Positions 12,241-20,834 of a stretch of 57,766 nt of DNA are shown here, piece by piece (the first letter of the stretch is position 1; each line of letters opens with the position of its first letter). The position numbers were made by a program, and so were the translations under genes. The DNA lies in contig MFNE01000026.1 of assembly GCA_001783695.1 (NCBI GenBank), positions 1 through 57,766 on the forward strand, given 5' to 3'. The notes beneath the pieces were generated by a model. The model saw only the letters and a list, made by a program, of their open reading frames with translations, made no database searches and was not told the origin of the DNA. This stretch comes from Candidatus Lambdaproteobacteria bacterium RIFOXYD2_FULL_50_16. GTDB taxonomy: Bacteria; SAR324; XYD2-FULL-50-16.

Positions 12241-14517
12241 ATGGACCTGAAAAAAGCAACCATACTCGACGCGATTGGCGAAGGCCTTTTTGTGGTGGAC
12301 CTTGAGGGACGGATTCGTTTTTGGAACCGTTGGATTTCGACCTACACCAAACAAGAGCCCAAGGCAGTAATCGGCAAACGGCTAGATGAAGTTTTTCCAG
12401 AGGTTAACCAAGATCAGCTAGTTAGAAAGATTGGCGCGAGCCTACGAATGGGGGTTCCCACCTACTTTTTTAACTTGGCCAGTGGCTGGTTTATAAAAAT
12501 TCCCTTTAAAAAGGTTACGGGCAGCCCTTTTGAATATATGCAGCAACAGGTGACAATTCACCCACTAGACCCAAAAGAGGGTTTAGTTGTGCTGCTGTTA
12601 CAAGACCAAACCGCTGCCCGTGAAGCCCAACATCGGCTAAGCCGTTTCGAAGCCTCTGAAGCGGAACAAAAGAAACTATTTTTAGATCAACTCACCGGGC
12701 TGCACTCGCGCTCGAAGATGTTGCAAGACTTGCCTAGAGCGTCAAAACCCCTTTTGGCCATTTTTTCGGTCGATTTGTTTAACGAAATGAACAAATTTTA
12801 TGGCTACGAGACGGGCGAATTGATTTTAAAGGAGGTTTCTGCGCGGCTAAAATCCTATTTTGGCGACGAAGCCCTGGGGATCTATAAATTACCTAGCGCC
12901 GAATTTGCGGTTTTAGAAGAAGGCTCGACCTCTATCGATAAATGGACCCAAAAGGTTCAATATTTCTTAGAAAACACCATGACTGAGCGGCTCGACAATC
13001 CTAAGTCGGGCCAACGGATTCCTTTGTCTATGACTGCGGGAATTAGCCGCGATAAAAAACAGCTTTTGCGCCATGCCGACTTGGCGCTGAAAGCGGCGAT
13101 AGAGCGCAAAAAAACTTGGTTGATTTTTGATAAGTCCTTAGACGACTTGGCTCGTTTTGAAGACAACATCCGTTGGGTGGGGATCGTTCGTGAAGCCCTA
13201 GAAGACGGGAGGATAATTCCCTATTATCAACCGATTATCGATAACAAATCGGGCGAAACCACTAAATACGAAACTTTAGTCCGTTTGATTGATCCGCAAG
13301 GCAAGGTTATTAGCCCCTACTATTTTTTAGAGGTAGCCAAAAAGGCCAAACTCTACGCCAAGATTACCCAACGGGTTCTAGACTGCTCCTTTGAAACCTT
13401 TGCTGATTCGAAAGCCGAGTTTTCGGTCAACCTAACGGTAGATGATATTCAAGATAAAGAAACCTTGGAGTACATCTACCGCAAGCTCCTAGAAAACCCC
13501 AAGATGACTCACAGGGTGATCTTTGAAATCATTGAGTCGGAAGGGATCGAAAACTTCGAAGAGGTCTCCCATTTTATTCAGCGAGTTAAAAGCCTCGGTG
13601 GCAAAATCGCCATTGACGACTTTGGCACCGGGTATTCGAATTTCGAATATTTAGTTCGCTTAGATGTTGATATCATTAAGATTGACGGGTCTCTAATCAG
13701 AAATCTTGATTTTGACAAAAACAAGTACATGGTGGTTGAGACCCTGGTCGAGTTTGCAAAAAAACTTGGGCTGCAAACGGTCGCTGAATTTGTGGATTCT
13801 AATAACGTCCTCAACGCGGTCAAAGCCTTAGGGATTACTTATAGCCAAGGGTTTTTCTTAGGGCAGCCTGAAGCACTTATTGAAAAAAAGGGCTCAAGCC
13901 GGGTCGCCCGACGCAGTTTAAACGAAAATCAATTGGACGCCTTTAAAGAGTTAATGAACATCGCCTTCGGGTCGGCGCTTTCGGTAATGGCTGATATTGT
14001 GGGCAGTTTGGTCAGCATCACCGTGCCCAATATCGATGTGATGGACCCGGATAAACTCAACCGCTTTGTGGACCTTAGCTTAAACGTAAGGGGCGAATCT
14101 TGGGTGGGTAGCCAAACCTTTTCTGGGATGATCGAAGGGGAGGTGCTTTTGTTTATCGCCCCTGAACCCGCCCGTAATCTGGCCGCCTTGTTTGAAAATA
14201 AACAAGGGAACCTGCTTTCGGAAAAAACCATTCGTGGAGCGGTGTTAGATTTTGTGAACATCATTGCGACCGCCTGTGTGAAAAATTTCTCTGAACATTT
14301 AGACCTTCACACCAAGCTAAACTTTCCGGCGCTAGAAGAAAGCCGGATTGGGTTGTTTAAGGCAGAATTGGGTTTAGAAGAACGCTTGGTGATGGTGGAC
14401 ACGGTGATCAAATTCCAGAAACGGGACATTCATGCCAATCTGGTTTTACTCACCCGGGTGGGCGATTCCCTCTTAACACGGCTGGATCAGTACATCGAAG
14501 AGATGGTAGGCAAATGA
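12241..14517 (+). CDS. PAS / degenerate GGDEF / EAL / CheC fusion protein
   Basis: A 758-residue soluble protein. A PAS-type domain (about 5-135) is followed by a GGDEF domain (about 150-300) whose signature is replaced by PSAEF, so it should not make c-di-GMP. The EAL domain (about 315-550) keeps ETLVR, SVNLTVDD, the Glu of IIESEG, DDFGTGYS, KIDGS and AEFV, so hydrolysis of c-di-GMP is expected. The C-terminal about 195 residues are a CheC-type domain: Asp566, Glu570, Asn573 and Pro596 fit the phosphatase pattern [DS]xxxExxN-x22-P exactly; the second copy has Gly/Asp670/Asn673/Pro696 and is weakened. The stop overlaps the next gene as ATGA. EAL-CheC joining is rare to my knowledge. Confidence 0.88.
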   Translation: MDLKKATILDAIGEGLFVVDLEGRIRFWNRWISTYTKQEPKAVIGKRLDEVFPEVNQDQLVRKIGASLRMGVPTYFFNLASGWFIKIPFKKVTGSPFEYMQQQVTIHPLDPKEGLVVLLLQDQTAAREAQHRLSRFEASEAEQKKLFLDQLTGLHSRSKMLQDLPRASKPLLAIFSVDLFNEMNKFYGYETGELILKEVSARLKSYFGDEALGIYKLPSAEFAVLEEGSTSIDKWTQKVQYFLENTMTERLDNPKSGQRIPLSMTAGISRDKKQLLRHADLALKAAIERKKTWLIFDKSLDDLARFEDNIRWVGIVREALEDGRIIPYYQPIIDNKSGETTKYETLVRLIDPQGKVISPYYFLEVAKKAKLYAKITQRVLDCSFETFADSKAEFSVNLTVDDIQDKETLEYIYRKLLENPKMTHRVIFEIIESEGIENFEEVSHFIQRVKSLGGKIAIDDFGTGYSNFEYLVRLDVDIIKIDGSLIRNLDFDKNKYMVVETLVEFAKKLGLQTVAEFVDSNNVLNAVKALGITYSQGFFLGQPEALIEKKGSSRVARRSLNENQLDAFKELMNIAFGSALSVMADIVGSLVSITVPNIDVMDPDKLNRFVDLSLNVRGESWVGSQTFSGMIEGEVLLFIAPEPARNLAALFENKQGNLLSEKTIRGAVLDFVNIIATACVKNFSEHLDLHTKLNFPALEESRIGLFKAELGLEERLVMVDTVIKFQKRDIHANLVLLTRVGDSLLTRLDQYIEEMVGK

Positions 14518-15137
14518 CTCCCATAGAACTCAAATGCTTAGAAGAGTTAATCAACATTTCTTTTGGCTCTGGCGTGGCGGTAGTGGCCGATATGATGGAT
14601 TCCAAAGCCCGCTTGCATCTCCCTGATGTCAAGGTTGTTAGTCCAGCAGAACTTTTGTTGGTGCTAAACGAGCGGATCAAACTCTCCTCCAGCCGACTGA
14701 TGGCCACTAGTCAACATTTTTTTGGTGAGATGGATGGCGAAATTCTGTTTCTAATTGATCAGTTTTCGGTGACCAATATGATTCGTCACTTAAATCATTT
14801 ACCTATGGAAACACAAATTTCAGGGCCCGAACTTTTAGACCCGGTCTTAGAGGTAGGTAACATACTTTCAGCCACTTGCTTAAAACGCCTGGCCGAGATG
14901 CTAGAATTCAATGTCGCTTTCACCCGCCCTAGTGTGGAATTTTTGCCCGAGTTGGGCCTAGCGACTGAAGACAATAGCCGTTATTGGGACGAGCGGGGCA
15001 AGGTGATTTTAGTAAATACCGAGCTAGATTTTAAGGAAGAAAAGATTTGGGGTAGTTTATATTTGTCGTTAGAGCCCGCAAGTTACAAGATTTTTAGCGC
15101 CAGGCTCAAGGCGTATAGCAGCGCCTTGGAGGTGTGA
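14514..15137 (+). CDS. Stand-alone CheC-family phosphatase
   Basis: A 207-residue homologue of the CheC/CheX/FliY family, which dephosphorylates CheY-type receivers. Two copies of the active-site helix are seen: the first has Glu11, Asn14 and Pro37 but Lys7 in place of Asp/Ser; the second has Asp109, Glu113, Asn116 and Pro139 and fits the consensus fully with 22 residues between Asn and Pro. It aligns along its length with the C-terminal domain of the protein just upstream (INISFGSG versus MNIAFGSA, GEMDGEILFLI versus GMIEGEVLLFI), so the two arose by duplication. No CheD or flagellar motor gene is near. Its target may be a receiver encoded nearby, such as 19512-20834 (inference). Confidence 0.85.
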   Translation: MTPIELKCLEELINISFGSGVAVVADMMDSKARLHLPDVKVVSPAELLLVLNERIKLSSSRLMATSQHFFGEMDGEILFLIDQFSVTNMIRHLNHLPMETQISGPELLDPVLEVGNILSATCLKRLAEMLEFNVAFTRPSVEFLPELGLATEDNSRYWDERGKVILVNTELDFKEEKIWGSLYLSLEPASYKIFSARLKAYSSALEV

Positions 15138-15139
15138 AT

Positions 15140-16420
15140 ATGTCTGGACATTCCTTAAGTTATAAAAAGTTACTAAACGCCCTCGAATGTGGGGTGATGA
15201 TTTTAGACCTTGAGTTGAATATTCTGTTTTGGAACGATTGGCTAACCGCTTACACCGACGTTTCAATTTCCAAGGCGCTCAAATCGCAGCTCAACCAACT
15301 TTTCCCTGAGGTCCGGCCAGAAGGATTAAAGAGGCAGATGCGCGCTACCCTGGCTTTGCAGGCCCCTATGTTTTATGGCAGTTTGCCAGATAATCAACTA
15401 TTAGAAGTGCCGCTGAATCGGATTATGAATCCGATCTTTAAGAGCATGCAGCAGTCGATTACCCTGGCCCCTTACGACGTAAAAAATGGATTGGTAGCTT
15501 TAATCTTAAACGACCAAACCAGCCTTAAAGAAGCCCAGCACCGCTTAGAGGCCAAGGTAGAAGAGGTCAAAAAGATGCAGTCCGGCTACTTAGACATTAT
15601 TGATCAACAAATTCTCTTGATCAAATGTGACTATCGAGGTCGGATAAATAAGGTTAGTTCCGCATTTTTACAGGTTTCCAAATACACCAAAGACGAGTTG
15701 GTGGGCATTTCGCTAGAAGAATTTATTAAGTTAGGTCAATTGGATGAGGTTAATACCGAAGAGATTTGGGAACAGGTGAATTCTGGGGTGGCTTGGAACG
15801 GGGAATTGGCCAAAACCAGAAAAGACGGTTCAAAGATCTGGCTGAGTGCGGTGGTGACTCCTAGTCTTTTATCATCGGGCAAGATCAATGAAATTAATGT
15901 GATATTGGCTGACATTAGCGACAAGAAAAAGATTGAATTGATCAGCACCACCGATCCTTTAACCGGGATTGCTAACCGGAAAAAGTTTGCTGAGGCTCTC
16001 GAACGCGAGATCCAAGTGGCAACCCGCTATGGCACTGGCTTTTCTGTGGCGATCTGCGACTTAGATCATTTCAAAAAAATTAACGATACCTTTGGTCACC
16101 AAATCGGCGACCAGGTTTTGGTGGGCACCTGCCGAATTTTTGAACGGGAAATCCGCGAAACCGATTACCTAGCCCGCTGGGGCGGAGAAGAGTTTGTATT
16201 GCTTTTCCCCCATGTTGACCTACGAACGACCCAAGGGATTTTGGAAAAAATCAGAAACGCCTTGGCCCTCCACCCCTTTGAACAGGCGGGTCAGGTAACC
16301 GCAAGTTTTGGCGCGACTGCCTTTAAACTTGGGGATAAGGACCACTCGCTCCTAGAAAGGGCAGACCGGGCCTTGTATAAATCGAAAAACGATGGCCGTA
16401 ACCGGGTGACGATTTTCTGA
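15140..16420 (+). CDS. PAS-PAS-GGDEF diguanylate cyclase
   Basis: The 426-residue soluble enzyme makes cyclic di-GMP from two GTP. The N-terminal domain (about 8-130) is a paralogue of the one in 12241-14517, with shared FPEV, MQQ, GLVALIL and EAQHRL. A second PAS lies at about 150-260. The GGDEF domain (about 265-425) keeps FSVAICDLDHFKKINDTFGH for metal and base binding, the active GGEEF at about 348-352 and an RETD product-inhibition site exactly five residues upstream, so feedback control is predicted. I choose ATG 15140 because GGAGG at 15128-15132 is 7 bp before it; GTG 15134 would be inside that site. The stop overlaps the next gene as TGATG. Confidence 0.92.
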   Translation: MSGHSLSYKKLLNALECGVMILDLELNILFWNDWLTAYTDVSISKALKSQLNQLFPEVRPEGLKRQMRATLALQAPMFYGSLPDNQLLEVPLNRIMNPIFKSMQQSITLAPYDVKNGLVALILNDQTSLKEAQHRLEAKVEEVKKMQSGYLDIIDQQILLIKCDYRGRINKVSSAFLQVSKYTKDELVGISLEEFIKLGQLDEVNTEEIWEQVNSGVAWNGELAKTRKDGSKIWLSAVVTPSLLSSGKINEINVILADISDKKKIELISTTDPLTGIANRKKFAEALEREIQVATRYGTGFSVAICDLDHFKKINDTFGHQIGDQVLVGTCRIFEREIRETDYLARWGGEEFVLLFPHVDLRTTQGILEKIRNALALHPFEQAGQVTASFGATAFKLGDKDHSLLERADRALYKSKNDGRNRVTIF

Positions 16421-17304
16421 TGGGAAGTTCAAAAAAACGGGGTAAAGTTGGTCCCCAAAAGCGTTACGCCGCACACAACTACTTATTTTTTTCCTTTGCT
16501 TTCGCCTTTATTTTAACGGCGCCCTTTTTTTTCTTTGACCTGCCCCTGTCGAGTTTAGCCGGGTTTGGGGTGGCGACGGTTTATATTTTTGTCCCTGCTG
16601 GGGTGACCCTGCTGATTTATAACAAAACTCTCATGGACCGGATCGAGTTGGCGATTCTGCCGAACCGAGGGTTTTTGTTGGCTATCTTTTTGCCCCTAGC
16701 CCTTGGGGGCATGGCCTTGTGGGTTAGTACACTGCTTGGGGAGACCGGGTTTTCTCTTGGTCTGGAAGAGGTTATCGCCCGATTGCCAGAAGAACAGCGG
16801 CCCGCTTCGGGCTCTGGTTCCCCCTTCTGGGGTGCGGCAGCCCAATCGCTGTTGGCCGGGTTTAGTATTAATGCCTTTTTTGCGTTAGGCGAGGAGCTGG
16901 GCTGGAGAGGGTTGCTGTTTAACGAGTGGATCAAATCGGGGTTTTGGAAATTATCCCTCTTGACGGGTCTGTGTTGGGGGCTTTGGTGGGCACCCTTGGT
17001 GGCCTTGGGGCAACATTACCCTGGGTATCCCTTAGAGGGCGTTGCCCTGATTCTCGCGTGGGCGATTTTAGCCAGTCCTTTATTGACTTGGGTGCGTATT
17101 CTAGGCCGCTCGGTGGCGGCAACTGCCCTCATGCGCGGGCTATTGGTTTCGGTTTCAGGGATCTCGGTTTTGCCCTTGGTCCATGCAAGCCCTTTGGGCT
17201 CGGGGATGATGGGGATTGCTGGACTTTTGGTCTTAGCCCTGGCTGATGTTCTTTTGTTGATTGGGCTCAAGGTGAAACCCCTAGGATTGCCAGAACGCCA
17301 TTAG
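16420..17304 (+). CDS. CPBP-family intramembrane metalloprotease
   Basis: The 294-residue polytopic membrane protein has about eight hydrophobic segments. Residues about 156-162 read EELGWRG, the EExxxR motif I of the CAAX protease/bacteriocin-processing (Abi) family; the second conserved motif may be the WGLWWAPL region (about 188-195) and a later histidine. The family cleaves substrates within the inner membrane, but few bacterial substrates are known. Its start overlaps the diguanylate cyclase stop by one base, so it is co-translated with the c-di-GMP genes. Co-expression could mean a role in membrane signalling, which is inference only. Confidence 0.8.
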   Translation: MGSSKKRGKVGPQKRYAAHNYLFFSFAFAFILTAPFFFFDLPLSSLAGFGVATVYIFVPAGVTLLIYNKTLMDRIELAILPNRGFLLAIFLPLALGGMALWVSTLLGETGFSLGLEEVIARLPEEQRPASGSGSPFWGAAAQSLLAGFSINAFFALGEELGWRGLLFNEWIKSGFWKLSLLTGLCWGLWWAPLVALGQHYPGYPLEGVALILAWAILASPLLTWVRILGRSVAATALMRGLLVSVSGISVLPLVHASPLGSGMMGIAGLLVLALADVLLLIGLKVKPLGLPERH

Positions 17305-17399: not shown

Positions 17400-19502
17400 T
17401 TGAATAATCGCAGTTTCGGGCTGATTTTTTCTGAAAATCAAGTGGTCTTGGATTTTATCCGGCACTCCCCTTTGTTTGCAGGGATGTCCGATTCGCTTCT
17501 GGCTCAATTAGAGCCACTGTGCGACTATTTGGAGATTGAAAAAGGACAGAAGATTTTGACCGAGGGTGAGCCTAATAATAACCTCTTTTTTTTAATAGAG
17601 GGGGTGCTCAAGGTAACCATCGAGGGGGAGATGGTGCGCTACTTGGATCAATCAGGTAGCTTGGTGGGCGAGATGAGTGTAATCAGTGACGCTCCGGCCA
17701 TAGCCAGTGTGGAGGCGGTCACCACTTGTCGGCTTTTGAGTGTGCGTAGCAAGGAATTTAGTCAGTTTGAATCGGCTGATAAAAGTGAAATCCGGCAGTC
17801 TTTATATTTCATTTTTGCGGTCATTTTAACCGAAAAATTAAAGGTCACCAGTCTAAAAGCGGTGCAATTTGAAAAAACCAACCGGCTTTTAGAACAGACC
17901 ACCTTAGACCTAGAAGCAGAGGCCTTAGCACGCAGGGTCGCTGACGAGCAGGCTAAGGTTTATGCCAAGTTTATGGAAGCGTCAGGCCAGGGTTTGGGGA
18001 TTTTTGGTTTGGATTTGTTTCCCCAATACTTAAACCCCGCTTTGCGAGCGATGTTAGGGGTGGAGGACTCCAGTCCAAGGGAACCGGTAAATTGGTTGTT
18101 GCGTTATGATAACAAAACCCGGTCCCGCTTCGCTTTGGAACTAATCCCGCAACTCTTCGAAACAGGCCAATGGAGCGGGGAATTAGACCTGGTCAAACCG
18201 GATGGGCAAAGGTTGCCTACATTGGAAAATATTTTTATTATCAATGGGGAAGAGGGGCATCCTCGGTTGATTGCGGCGGTGATCACCGACATTACCGCAA
18301 GAAAACAAATGGAAAACCAGCTACGATTAAACGAAGCCAGTATGAACGTGGCCCAACAGATAGCCCATCTGGGCAGTTGGGAACTAGAACTTTCCTCTGG
18401 TAAACTTAGTTGGTCTGATGAAGTGTTTCGGATTTTTGGGCAAACCCAAGAGCACTTCCTTCCTGATTATAATTCATTTATGGCCGGGATCCATGCAGAG
18501 GACCGGGGCGAGGTGATGGCGGCCCTAAACTTTGCCGCCCAGACCCAAACCTTACTTTCCATCGAGCACCGTGTGGTGCAACCAAACGGAGCGGAGCGGG
18601 TGGTCCAAGAGCGGGGTGAGGTTTTTAGTAATCGGTTTGGTGAACCCCAAAAAATGGTGGGGACTATGCTCGATATAACCGAGTCCAAGCGGATTCAAAA
18701 ACAATTACTAGATTATAAAGACGGCCTCGAAGTAATGGTGGCCAAACGAACCGAGGAATTAACCTTAGCCACCAAGGAAGCCGAACGCGCCAATCAAGCG
18801 AAATCCGATTTTTTGGCCAATATTTCTCACGAATTACGCACGCCACTCCATGGGATTTTATCCTTTGCCGAAAAAGGAATTCGTAAAAGCACCCAGTTGT
18901 CTCCAGAAAAATTACAACGCTATTTTGAGGTGATTGAAGGCAGCGGCCAACGCCTCCTAAGACTGCTGGATAACCTGTTAGACCTTTCTAAGCTGGAAGC
19001 CGGGAAGATGGATTTTGCCTTTGCCGAGGGGGATTTGGTGGACCTAGTTTGGCAAATCCACCAAGAAATGGAAGGGATGATTTTAGATAAAAACATCCAA
19101 TTTGTACTAGATCCTCCCCCGAATCATACGTGGGGTTTTTTTGACCCCTGTCGAATAGGGCAGGTTTTGAGTAATTTGTTTTCTAACGCCATTAAATTTT
19201 CTGATCCTGGCAAAACTTTACGGGTGCGTATTATAGACGAAGAGCTAGAAGGCAAGCCCGCCTTCCGTTTAGATGTCCTAGACCAGGGAATTGGTATTCC
19301 TGAAACAGAGTTAGAAGGTATTTTTGACAAGTTTGCTCAATCCAGCAAAACTGATCAAAAAGCCGGAGGAACTGGTTTAGGATTGGCTATTTGCCGAGAG
19401 ATAATCGAAGGACACCAAGGAAAAATCTGGGCCGAAATCTGGCCTGAAGGGGGAACCAAAATGACTATTTTATTCCCCAAACGCCATGTTACCCCTGCCT
19501 GA
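17400..19502 (+). CDS. cNMP-binding / PAS-PAS histidine kinase
   Basis: A 700-residue soluble kinase. A cyclic-nucleotide-binding (CRP-like) domain covers about residues 22-140 (GEPNNNLFFLIEG, GSLVGEMSVISDAPAIASVEA), then a coiled stretch (160-190), PAS domains at about 190-305 and 320-435, a HisKA with SHELRTPLHG (about 476-485) and an HATPase_c with NLFSNAIKFSDPGK (about 593-606), DQGIGIPE and GTGLGLAI. The phosphate cassette of the CRP-like domain lacks the classical Arg (residues GEMSVIS.APAIAS), so cAMP binding is uncertain. The start is TTG 17400; the next Met is inside the first domain. It is followed 9 bp later by a response regulator, its probable partner. Confidence 0.88.
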   Translation: MNNRSFGLIFSENQVVLDFIRHSPLFAGMSDSLLAQLEPLCDYLEIEKGQKILTEGEPNNNLFFLIEGVLKVTIEGEMVRYLDQSGSLVGEMSVISDAPAIASVEAVTTCRLLSVRSKEFSQFESADKSEIRQSLYFIFAVILTEKLKVTSLKAVQFEKTNRLLEQTTLDLEAEALARRVADEQAKVYAKFMEASGQGLGIFGLDLFPQYLNPALRAMLGVEDSSPREPVNWLLRYDNKTRSRFALELIPQLFETGQWSGELDLVKPDGQRLPTLENIFIINGEEGHPRLIAAVITDITARKQMENQLRLNEASMNVAQQIAHLGSWELELSSGKLSWSDEVFRIFGQTQEHFLPDYNSFMAGIHAEDRGEVMAALNFAAQTQTLLSIEHRVVQPNGAERVVQERGEVFSNRFGEPQKMVGTMLDITESKRIQKQLLDYKDGLEVMVAKRTEELTLATKEAERANQAKSDFLANISHELRTPLHGILSFAEKGIRKSTQLSPEKLQRYFEVIEGSGQRLLRLLDNLLDLSKLEAGKMDFAFAEGDLVDLVWQIHQEMEGMILDKNIQFVLDPPPNHTWGFFDPCRIGQVLSNLFSNAIKFSDPGKTLRVRIIDEELEGKPAFRLDVLDQGIGIPETELEGIFDKFAQSSKTDQKAGGTGLGLAICREIIEGHQGKIWAEIWPEGGTKMTILFPKRHVTPA

Positions 19503-19511
19503 AGAAACAAG

Positions 19512-20834
19512 ATGGAAAAGCAAGCACTAAAAGTTTTGGTTGCGGACGATAATCTAGTCAACCTCGAATCGATCTCTGATTTATTAGAAGAAGAGGGTTT
19601 GAGCTATCTTACGGCTACCAATGGGGTCGAAGCCCTAAAAATTCTAGAAGAACAGGGGCCTGCGGAGGTAATTATCCTCGACTGGATGATGCCGCAAATG
19701 AGTGGGTTCGAATTGCTCAAAATACTCAAAAGAGACCCTCGTTGGTGTGATATCCCGGTGATTATGCAAACCGCCAAAAGCCAGGAAAAGGACATGATCG
19801 ATGCCCTGGATTCGAAGGTTTTTTTATACCTGACTAAGCCCTATTCAGACAAAGTTCTAGCCTCGATGGTACGCCGGGCGCTTTCTGAATATCGGCGTTT
19901 TAAAGATATGGAAAGGCGGAGCGAATTTAAACAAGAAGAAGCCAAGGAGTTGCTTAAATCTTTGGTGGCCAACCAAACCAAAAAAATCGAATTTGATTTA
20001 AAAACCTATCAAGAACTAAACCAATTTTTTATACACAGTTTGGCTTGTAACGATCTTGAAGCCTTGGTTCAAACCTTTCTGGATTGTATTACGAAGTTTT
20101 CTTTTGAGTCGGCGCGTAATGAAGGCGAACCCGAAGAATTTAAGCTACTTCGCTGTAGTATCAGGTTAGCTGATGGGGAGGAGATTAACCTGTCAGACCG
20201 GGGGATCAGCTCTAAATTAGATAGTATGATTTTAGACAAGGCGATTAAAAGTGGTGAGATTATCGCCAGAGGGAGTTACACCGCCGTCCCGGCAGCATCG
20301 CAAAACCTAGCTATTTTGATTCGCAACAGCCCTTCTAATCCAGACGAATTAGACATGGCTTTAAAAATGGTGGCGGTGATGTTGGAGATGTTTGACGCGC
20401 GGGTAGGGCATTTCCGCAACAACCTAGAGATATTAAAACAAAAAGAGGCGTTAGAGCAAAAAAACGGACATATCCGCAATATTATCAAAAGCGCCGCCGA
20501 AGAACTGGGCAAGGTCAATCAGAAATATCAAGCGATGAAAGAGACCCAGATGGACATTATGGAACGACTCGATGAAAACTTAAAATCGGTGATCCCTAAT
20601 CTTAGCGAGGAGCAACTCAAAGCCTTGGAGGCGGCTAGCATAGACCGGCTTAATGCCAGTATGCAGCTTTATACAGAAGACCAGATCACAGACCAACAAT
20701 TTTTGTTAACCATTCAAGAGCTAAACCACCTTTTCTCTGAGAAAAATGCCGAAGAAAACAAACTAAAACCCGGTCAATTGGGTGGCACCGATCAGGCTCA
20801 AGTGGATGATCTATTAGCCTCTTTTGGGTTTTAG
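19512..20834 (+). CDS. Response regulator with long coiled-coil C-terminus
   Basis: The 440-residue protein has an N-terminal receiver (about 6-125) with the acidic pair ADD (11-13), phospho-acceptor Asp in IILDWMMP (about residue 58), the switch threonine in MQTAKS and the lysine in LTKPYS. The rest, about 130-440, is mostly helical with heptad-like stretches (about 130-170 and 300-380) and no known output domain; residues about 170-290 may form a small alpha/beta domain. It lies 9 bp after the cNMP/PAS kinase and is probably its phosphorylation target. Its 3' end overlaps gluQ on the other strand by 21 bp. Confidence 0.85.
   Translation: MEKQALKVLVADDNLVNLESISDLLEEEGLSYLTATNGVEALKILEEQGPAEVIILDWMMPQMSGFELLKILKRDPRWCDIPVIMQTAKSQEKDMIDALDSKVFLYLTKPYSDKVLASMVRRALSEYRRFKDMERRSEFKQEEAKELLKSLVANQTKKIEFDLKTYQELNQFFIHSLACNDLEALVQTFLDCITKFSFESARNEGEPEEFKLLRCSIRLADGEEINLSDRGISSKLDSMILDKAIKSGEIIARGSYTAVPAASQNLAILIRNSPSNPDELDMALKMVAVMLEMFDARVGHFRNNLEILKQKEALEQKNGHIRNIIKSAAEELGKVNQKYQAMKETQMDIMERLDENLKSVIPNLSEEQLKALEAASIDRLNASMQLYTEDQITDQQFLLTIQELNHLFSEKNAEENKLKPGQLGGTDQAQVDDLLASFGF

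Follow-up and report, generated by a model that had tools for sequence, protein, structure and literature searches.

Which receiver would two CheC-type phosphatases serve when they are encoded among enzymes that make and break c-di-GMP, and how did one of them come to be part of such an enzyme? The locus lies in the window, by which we mean the whole 57,766-nucleotide stretch analysed (contig MFNE01000026.1 of Candidatus Lambdaproteobacteria bacterium RIFOXYD2_FULL_50_16; genome 3.14 Mb, 98% complete, with 52 genomes of its phylum in the searched set). Three plus-strand open reading frames follow one another with successive 4-nt overlaps (Table 1), exactly where a preliminary description of this DNA had placed them, and an SD-like AGAGGGA precedes the ATG of gene 1. 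The operon is real and intact. A gene for a CPBP/Rce1-like membrane protease comes next and is probably co-transcribed as a fourth gene; a neighbour of this kind was not noticed at any other CheC locus. The histidine kinase encoded further downstream is a possible kinase for a receiver. Directly behind this cNMP/PAS kinase lies a REC protein, the C-terminal part of which (~300 aa) matched no Pfam family above cut-off. No receiver gene is present between 12092 and 17304.

Table 1. Features of the operon and its downstream neighbours (window coordinates).
Feature	Coordinates	Strand	Evidence and remarks
Gene 1: PAS*-GGDEF(degenerate)-EAL-CheC fusion, 758 aa	12241..14517	+	ORF and domain matches
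Gene 1, PAS* domain, residues 2-134	12244..12642	+	FWNRW and YMQQ motifs; 37% identity to gene 3 PAS*
Gene 1, degenerate GGDEF, residues 143-297, motif PSAEF	12667..13131	+	Pfam 38.2 bits
Gene 1, EAL phosphodiesterase domain, residues 316-543	13186..13869	+	Pfam 6.6e-60; catalytic residues complete
Gene 1, fused CheC domain, residues 557-755	13909..14505	+	Site 1 complete, site 2 E to D
Gene 2: stand-alone CheC, 207 aa	14514..15137	+	NCBIfam, model, motif; site 2 complete, site 1 K for D/S
Gene 3: PAS*-PAS-GGDEF diguanylate cyclase, 428 aa	15134..16420	+	Pfam; GGEEF and I-site RETD
CPBP/Rce1-like membrane protease	16420..17304	+	1-nt overlap with gene 3
Histidine kinase: cNMP-binding, PAS, HisKA, HATPase	17400..19502	+	95 nt downstream
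REC protein, 440 aa; receiver proposed in the preliminary description	19512..20834	+	REC not of cassette type

Gene 1 encodes, as proposed, an EAL phosphodiesterase with a C-terminal CheC domain. Within residues 560-750, where CheC had been placed, the protein matches Pfam CheC at residues 564-598 (24.8 bits, cut-off 22) and Pfam CheX at residues 623-690 (29.0 bits, cut-off 27). The metal- and substrate-binding residues of the EAL domain (E344, N397, E429, D459/D460, K480, E516 and Q536) form the full set that had been claimed. The protein also has an N-terminal PAS domain and a GGDEF domain, neither of which figured in that description; the GG[DE]EF motif is absent, with PSAEF in its place, so that this domain is predicted to be inactive as a cyclase and is probably regulatory. 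The stand-alone CheC likewise stood up. Although it stays under the Pfam cut-offs, NCBIfam CheC_Thtogales aligns with it along the whole protein (1.8e-13), and it shares 27% identity with the fused domain (2e-17). AlphaFold models of the two CheC sequences (mean pLDDT 80.6 and 86.1) both match Thermotoga CheC (1xkr) and FliY (4hyn), with best E-values of 5e-13 and 8.5e-12, and Foldseek alignment to 1xkr (TM about 0.7-0.8 for both) gives the CheC fold with its two similar halves, in the C-terminal domain of gene 1 as in gene 2. The Thermotoga maritima protein (1xkr, 2f9z) shares this fold and the active-site motif with the window CheCs at about 20% sequence identity; unlike them, it is a chemotaxis protein with a CheD partner. 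A chance or artefactual origin of the fusion was ruled out: the reading frame is unbroken across the EAL-CheC junction, no separate CheC start codon was seen there, and both CheC regions have the predicted fold.

Gene 3 has the GGEEF motif at residues 350-354, as had been reported, and an I-site RxxD (RETD) at residues 341-344, with a Pfam GGDEF match of 1.5e-42. Its N-terminal PAS belongs to a recurrent N-terminal type with the pattern WNxW ... MQQ, here called PAS*, for which a separate profile was built; it scores 147.2 bits against that profile, of which it is itself a seed, with WNxW and MQQ aligned. The PAS* domains of genes 1 and 3 are sisters in the PAS* tree (100/98).

We asked how common the EAL-CheC fusion is. 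None was found elsewhere among the matches listed in a CheC-profile search of about 1,270 genomes (~250 with such a CheC), none of 72,556 plasmid records covered 80% of the fusion protein, and a contig scan with the whole fusion protein as query returned no relative. Loci of plasmid matches were fetched from Marinobacter and Pseudoalteromonas, and the Marinobacter locus, when read, contained no CheC. Two long frames considered as further fusions were rejected: the 538-aa frame in G429 encloses a shorter REC-CheC protein, and the 640-aa frame in G794 encodes a protein with repeated CheX-like parts. The literature searched for EAL with CheC or CheX, for CheC with GGDEF and for class II CheC does not describe the fusion. 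Because the genome result concerns the matches listed for a CheC profile, "rare" is well supported and "unique" is not; common, at any rate, the architecture was not found to be. What is new at this locus is the fusion, whereas CheC beside c-di-GMP enzymes belongs to an already widespread cassette.

To examine this cassette, CheC relatives were drawn from the phylum of the window, from sampled genomes of the phyla to which three named loci belong (Pseudomonadota, Geobacter, Nitrospirae), from a single class inside the first of the three, and from named contigs. The loci were annotated with small custom profiles for REC, CheC, GGDEF, EAL, HK and PAS*. The common order, found in several phyla, is REC > CheC > PAS*-output, the output being HK or GGDEF and rarely GGDEF-EAL. 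REC was adjacent or fused at 110 of the 127 non-redundant CheC loci outside the window and PAS* was present at 109 of 127 (outputs HK 54, GGDEF 42, GGDEF-EAL 2, the remainder cut off or not seen), counts that give a pattern and not a census because they come from best-scoring loci, mostly with ~1.5 kb flanks, and from profiles with about a dozen seeds. CheC outside chemotaxis is thus nothing unusual, contrary to what the preliminary description implied. CheC, receiver and PAS* make up a general module, present in several phyla, whose output can be exchanged: a histidine kinase, a cyclase or a bifunctional enzyme. Genes 2 and 3 fit it, the CheC gene lying directly upstream of the PAS*-GGDEF gene and overlapping it. 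Class II CheC phosphatases (Muff and Ordal 2008) reportedly lie outside chemotaxis clusters and were proposed to dephosphorylate other receivers; the window resembles them in having CheC away from chemotaxis clusters and differs in that an EAL phosphodiesterase carries a CheC at its C-terminus. Loci L096 and L098 (REC-CheC followed by PAS*-GGDEF) share the pairing of CheC with a PAS*-cyclase, but there CheC is fused to the receiver, not to a phosphodiesterase. REC-CheC fusions are also known as CheC-type response regulators, for example Psyr_0886 (PMC2222644, PMC5654926). An EAL output is shared by L099 (Gammaproteobacteria) and L055 (a Pseudomonadota MAG), both REC > CheC > PAS*-PAS-GGDEF-EAL; unlike the window, they have separate genes, an intact GGDEF and a receiver. 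On Vibrio coralliilyticus plasmid p319 (L203), a further CheC cassette adjoins c-di-GMP breakdown genes, in the order HDOD > REC > CheC > PAS*-HK > REC-GGDEF-EAL > HD-domain phosphohydrolase on one strand.

A described counterpart is the pdcABC operon of Burkholderia thailandensis, whose three products, according to the review PMC9899790, are the cyclase PdcA, the CheC/CheX phosphatase PdcB and the receiver PdcC. Once phosphorylated, PdcC is reported to inhibit PdcA by binding its PAS, and PdcB to dephosphorylate PdcC (Wang et al. 2022, AEM 88:e02529-21, as summarized in PMC9899790). A Burkholderia cenocepacia locus (L202) has the cassette, and the PAS* profile finds its cyclase PAS at 119.5 bits; on this match the operon in Burkholderia is of the same kind as the cassette. 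The L202 cyclase appears to be the pdcA homologue listed in PMC9899790. The window operon is like pdcABC in combining a CheC-type protein with a PAS-GGDEF cyclase in one operon, with control that would run through a CheY-like receiver. It differs in that pdcABC, as reviewed there, includes a gene for its receiver but none for a phosphodiesterase, whereas the window operon lacks a receiver gene and has gained an EAL enzyme with PAS* and CheC. We read it as a rearranged, enlarged Pdc-type switch in which a rare fusion is present and the receiver gene lies outside the operon.

In an ordinary cassette, a CheY-like receiver that has been phosphorylated would alter the activity of the output enzyme by binding its PAS*, and CheC would strip the phosphate. 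Because cyclase and phosphodiesterase carry sister PAS* domains here, the same phosphorylated receiver probably contacts both; because one CheC is in cis on the phosphodiesterase and another stands alongside, the phosphate would be erased locally, at the enzymes. From these two features, synthesis and breakdown of c-di-GMP would probably be set by one phosphorylation state, with cyclase and phosphodiesterase likely shifted in opposite directions. We consider it reasonably probable that the operon works as such a member of the Pdc type, with both CheCs erasing the phosphate of a receiver for which an orphan on contig C10 (see below) is the best candidate. The coupling of c-di-GMP turnover to receiver dephosphorylation suggested earlier is well supported, by analogy with the action described for the homologous pdcABC in the review PMC9899790. 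What is known of Pdc logic from a single cyclase operon would be extended to a phosphodiesterase arm consisting of one protein with separately testable parts. More tentatively, and with considerable doubt, we suggest that a single phosphorylated receiver controlling both maker and breaker, with the breaker erasing the phosphate in cis, forms a bistable or self-resetting switch. In the literature searched, no c-di-GMP enzyme was described as wired in this way.

To look for the missing receiver, all 106 REC matches of the genome were scored with a cassette-receiver profile. The best (157.6 bits) was the receiver of the only other CheC locus that a CheC-alignment search found in the genome, a REC > CheC > PAS*-HK-REC cassette on contig C52, itself included in the profile. 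The second was an orphan, G000:C10:21975-22328(-), at 117 bits, and the rest scored ~85 or less. In the receiver tree the orphan is placed inside a set of 17 rows of GGDEF-type cassette receivers (95/90), with sampled ordinary receivers apart. The receivers at 19512 and 33375, earlier proposed as substrates, are unlikely to be so: they scored 50.9 and 80.9 bits against 117 for the orphan, lie among the genome's ordinary receivers in the tree, and were rejected as first choice on both counts. In the CheC tree, the window pair joins GGDEF-type cassettes in a group of 29 rows (26 GGDEF-type, the window pair and one HK-type) apart from the HK-type CheC of C52 (99/96), with the window CheCs on long branches and a tree pairing them with the genome's HK-type CheC not rejected (p-AU = 0.108). 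On the 117-bit score, the receiver tree and the GGDEF-type side of the CheC tree, the C10 orphan is preferred and would be, as judged from sequence kinship, the best candidate partner of the operon. Kinship to cassette receivers may be a usable rule for finding a partner whose gene has moved away. The orphan (L199:5958-6401) neighbours fliP/fliQ-like genes and is on the opposite strand; it may link the switch to the flagellum.

The C52 receiver was kept as a rival because the PAS* tree leans the other way, both window PAS* domains joining the HK-type PAS* of C52 and L030 (88/84), with a GGDEF-type grouping not rejected (p-AU = 0.46). The window operon would then be a c-di-GMP branch fed by the C52 kinase cassette. 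The C52 receiver also has the top profile score, partly owing to its own membership in the profile, but it already sits beside its own CheC, the CheC tree separates that type from the window pair, and an unpaired cassette-type receiver is available on C10. We regard the C52 receiver as an unlikely partner.

With the C10 orphan as preferred partner, both CheCs would act on it as phosphatases. The CheC active-site consensus is D/S-x3-E-x2-N-x22-P, present once or twice per protein. In the fused domain, site 1 is complete (D566-E570-N573-P596) and site 2 reads G666-D670-N673-P696; in the stand-alone protein, site 2 is complete (D109-E113-N116-P139) and site 1 reads K7-E11-N14-P37. Each sequence thus has one full site and another that is one or two positions off consensus, the latter a point against the main reading. 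The "two full CheC motifs" of the preliminary description hold as one per protein, not as two in either. Signalling enzymes often retain degenerate domains as sensors, and the fused CheC might accordingly be a docking or sensing domain that binds the phosphorylated receiver and gates the EAL domain, leaving dephosphorylation to the stand-alone CheC. The departures of G666 and D670 from the consensus D/S and E fit this, as does the degenerate GGDEF of the same protein; however, site 1 of the fused domain is complete, and D in place of E at site 2 is common to 19 of 136 CheC domains and is found in the Burkholderia cassette CheC as well. We think this reading improbable and retain erasure by both CheCs.

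The preliminary description had noted no chemotaxis or flagellar gene. This held near the operon, no che or cheD gene being seen among the surrounding open reading frames, but not genome-wide: the genome has a clear FliM (231 bits) and CheW-domain matches on five contigs, none of them the operon's. A 542-aa open frame on the chemotaxis contig (G000:C24:75765-77195) has three consecutive CheW domains. It is quite unlikely that the CheCs couple c-di-GMP to flagellar taxis by acting on a chemotaxis CheY or on the 19512 or 33375 receiver. In favour of this, CheW-domain proteins and FliM are encoded in the genome, the receiver at 19512 is only 3 kb downstream, on the operon's own strand and preceded by a histidine kinase, and the C10 orphan adjoins fliP- and fliQ-like genes. 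Against it, cassette CheCs pair with cassette receivers, and the 19512 and 33375 receivers, together with the ones sampled on the C24 chemotaxis contig, fall among the ordinary receivers of the genome.

As to the origin of the phosphodiesterase arm of the proposed Pdc-type switch, the GGDEF-EAL core of gene 1 resembles other, CheC-less proteins of the same genome and family, which suggests that a copied PAS* and a CheC probably came to flank a captured core. Tandem CheC genes occur at loci L037-L039, L080 and L083 and are a plausible intermediate on the way to fusion. At another locus (L198, G794:C81), in a genome from one of the phylum samples, a row of genes encodes a CheY-like receiver, a pair of short CheX-like proteins and a 627-aa protein in which CheX-like parts are repeated.
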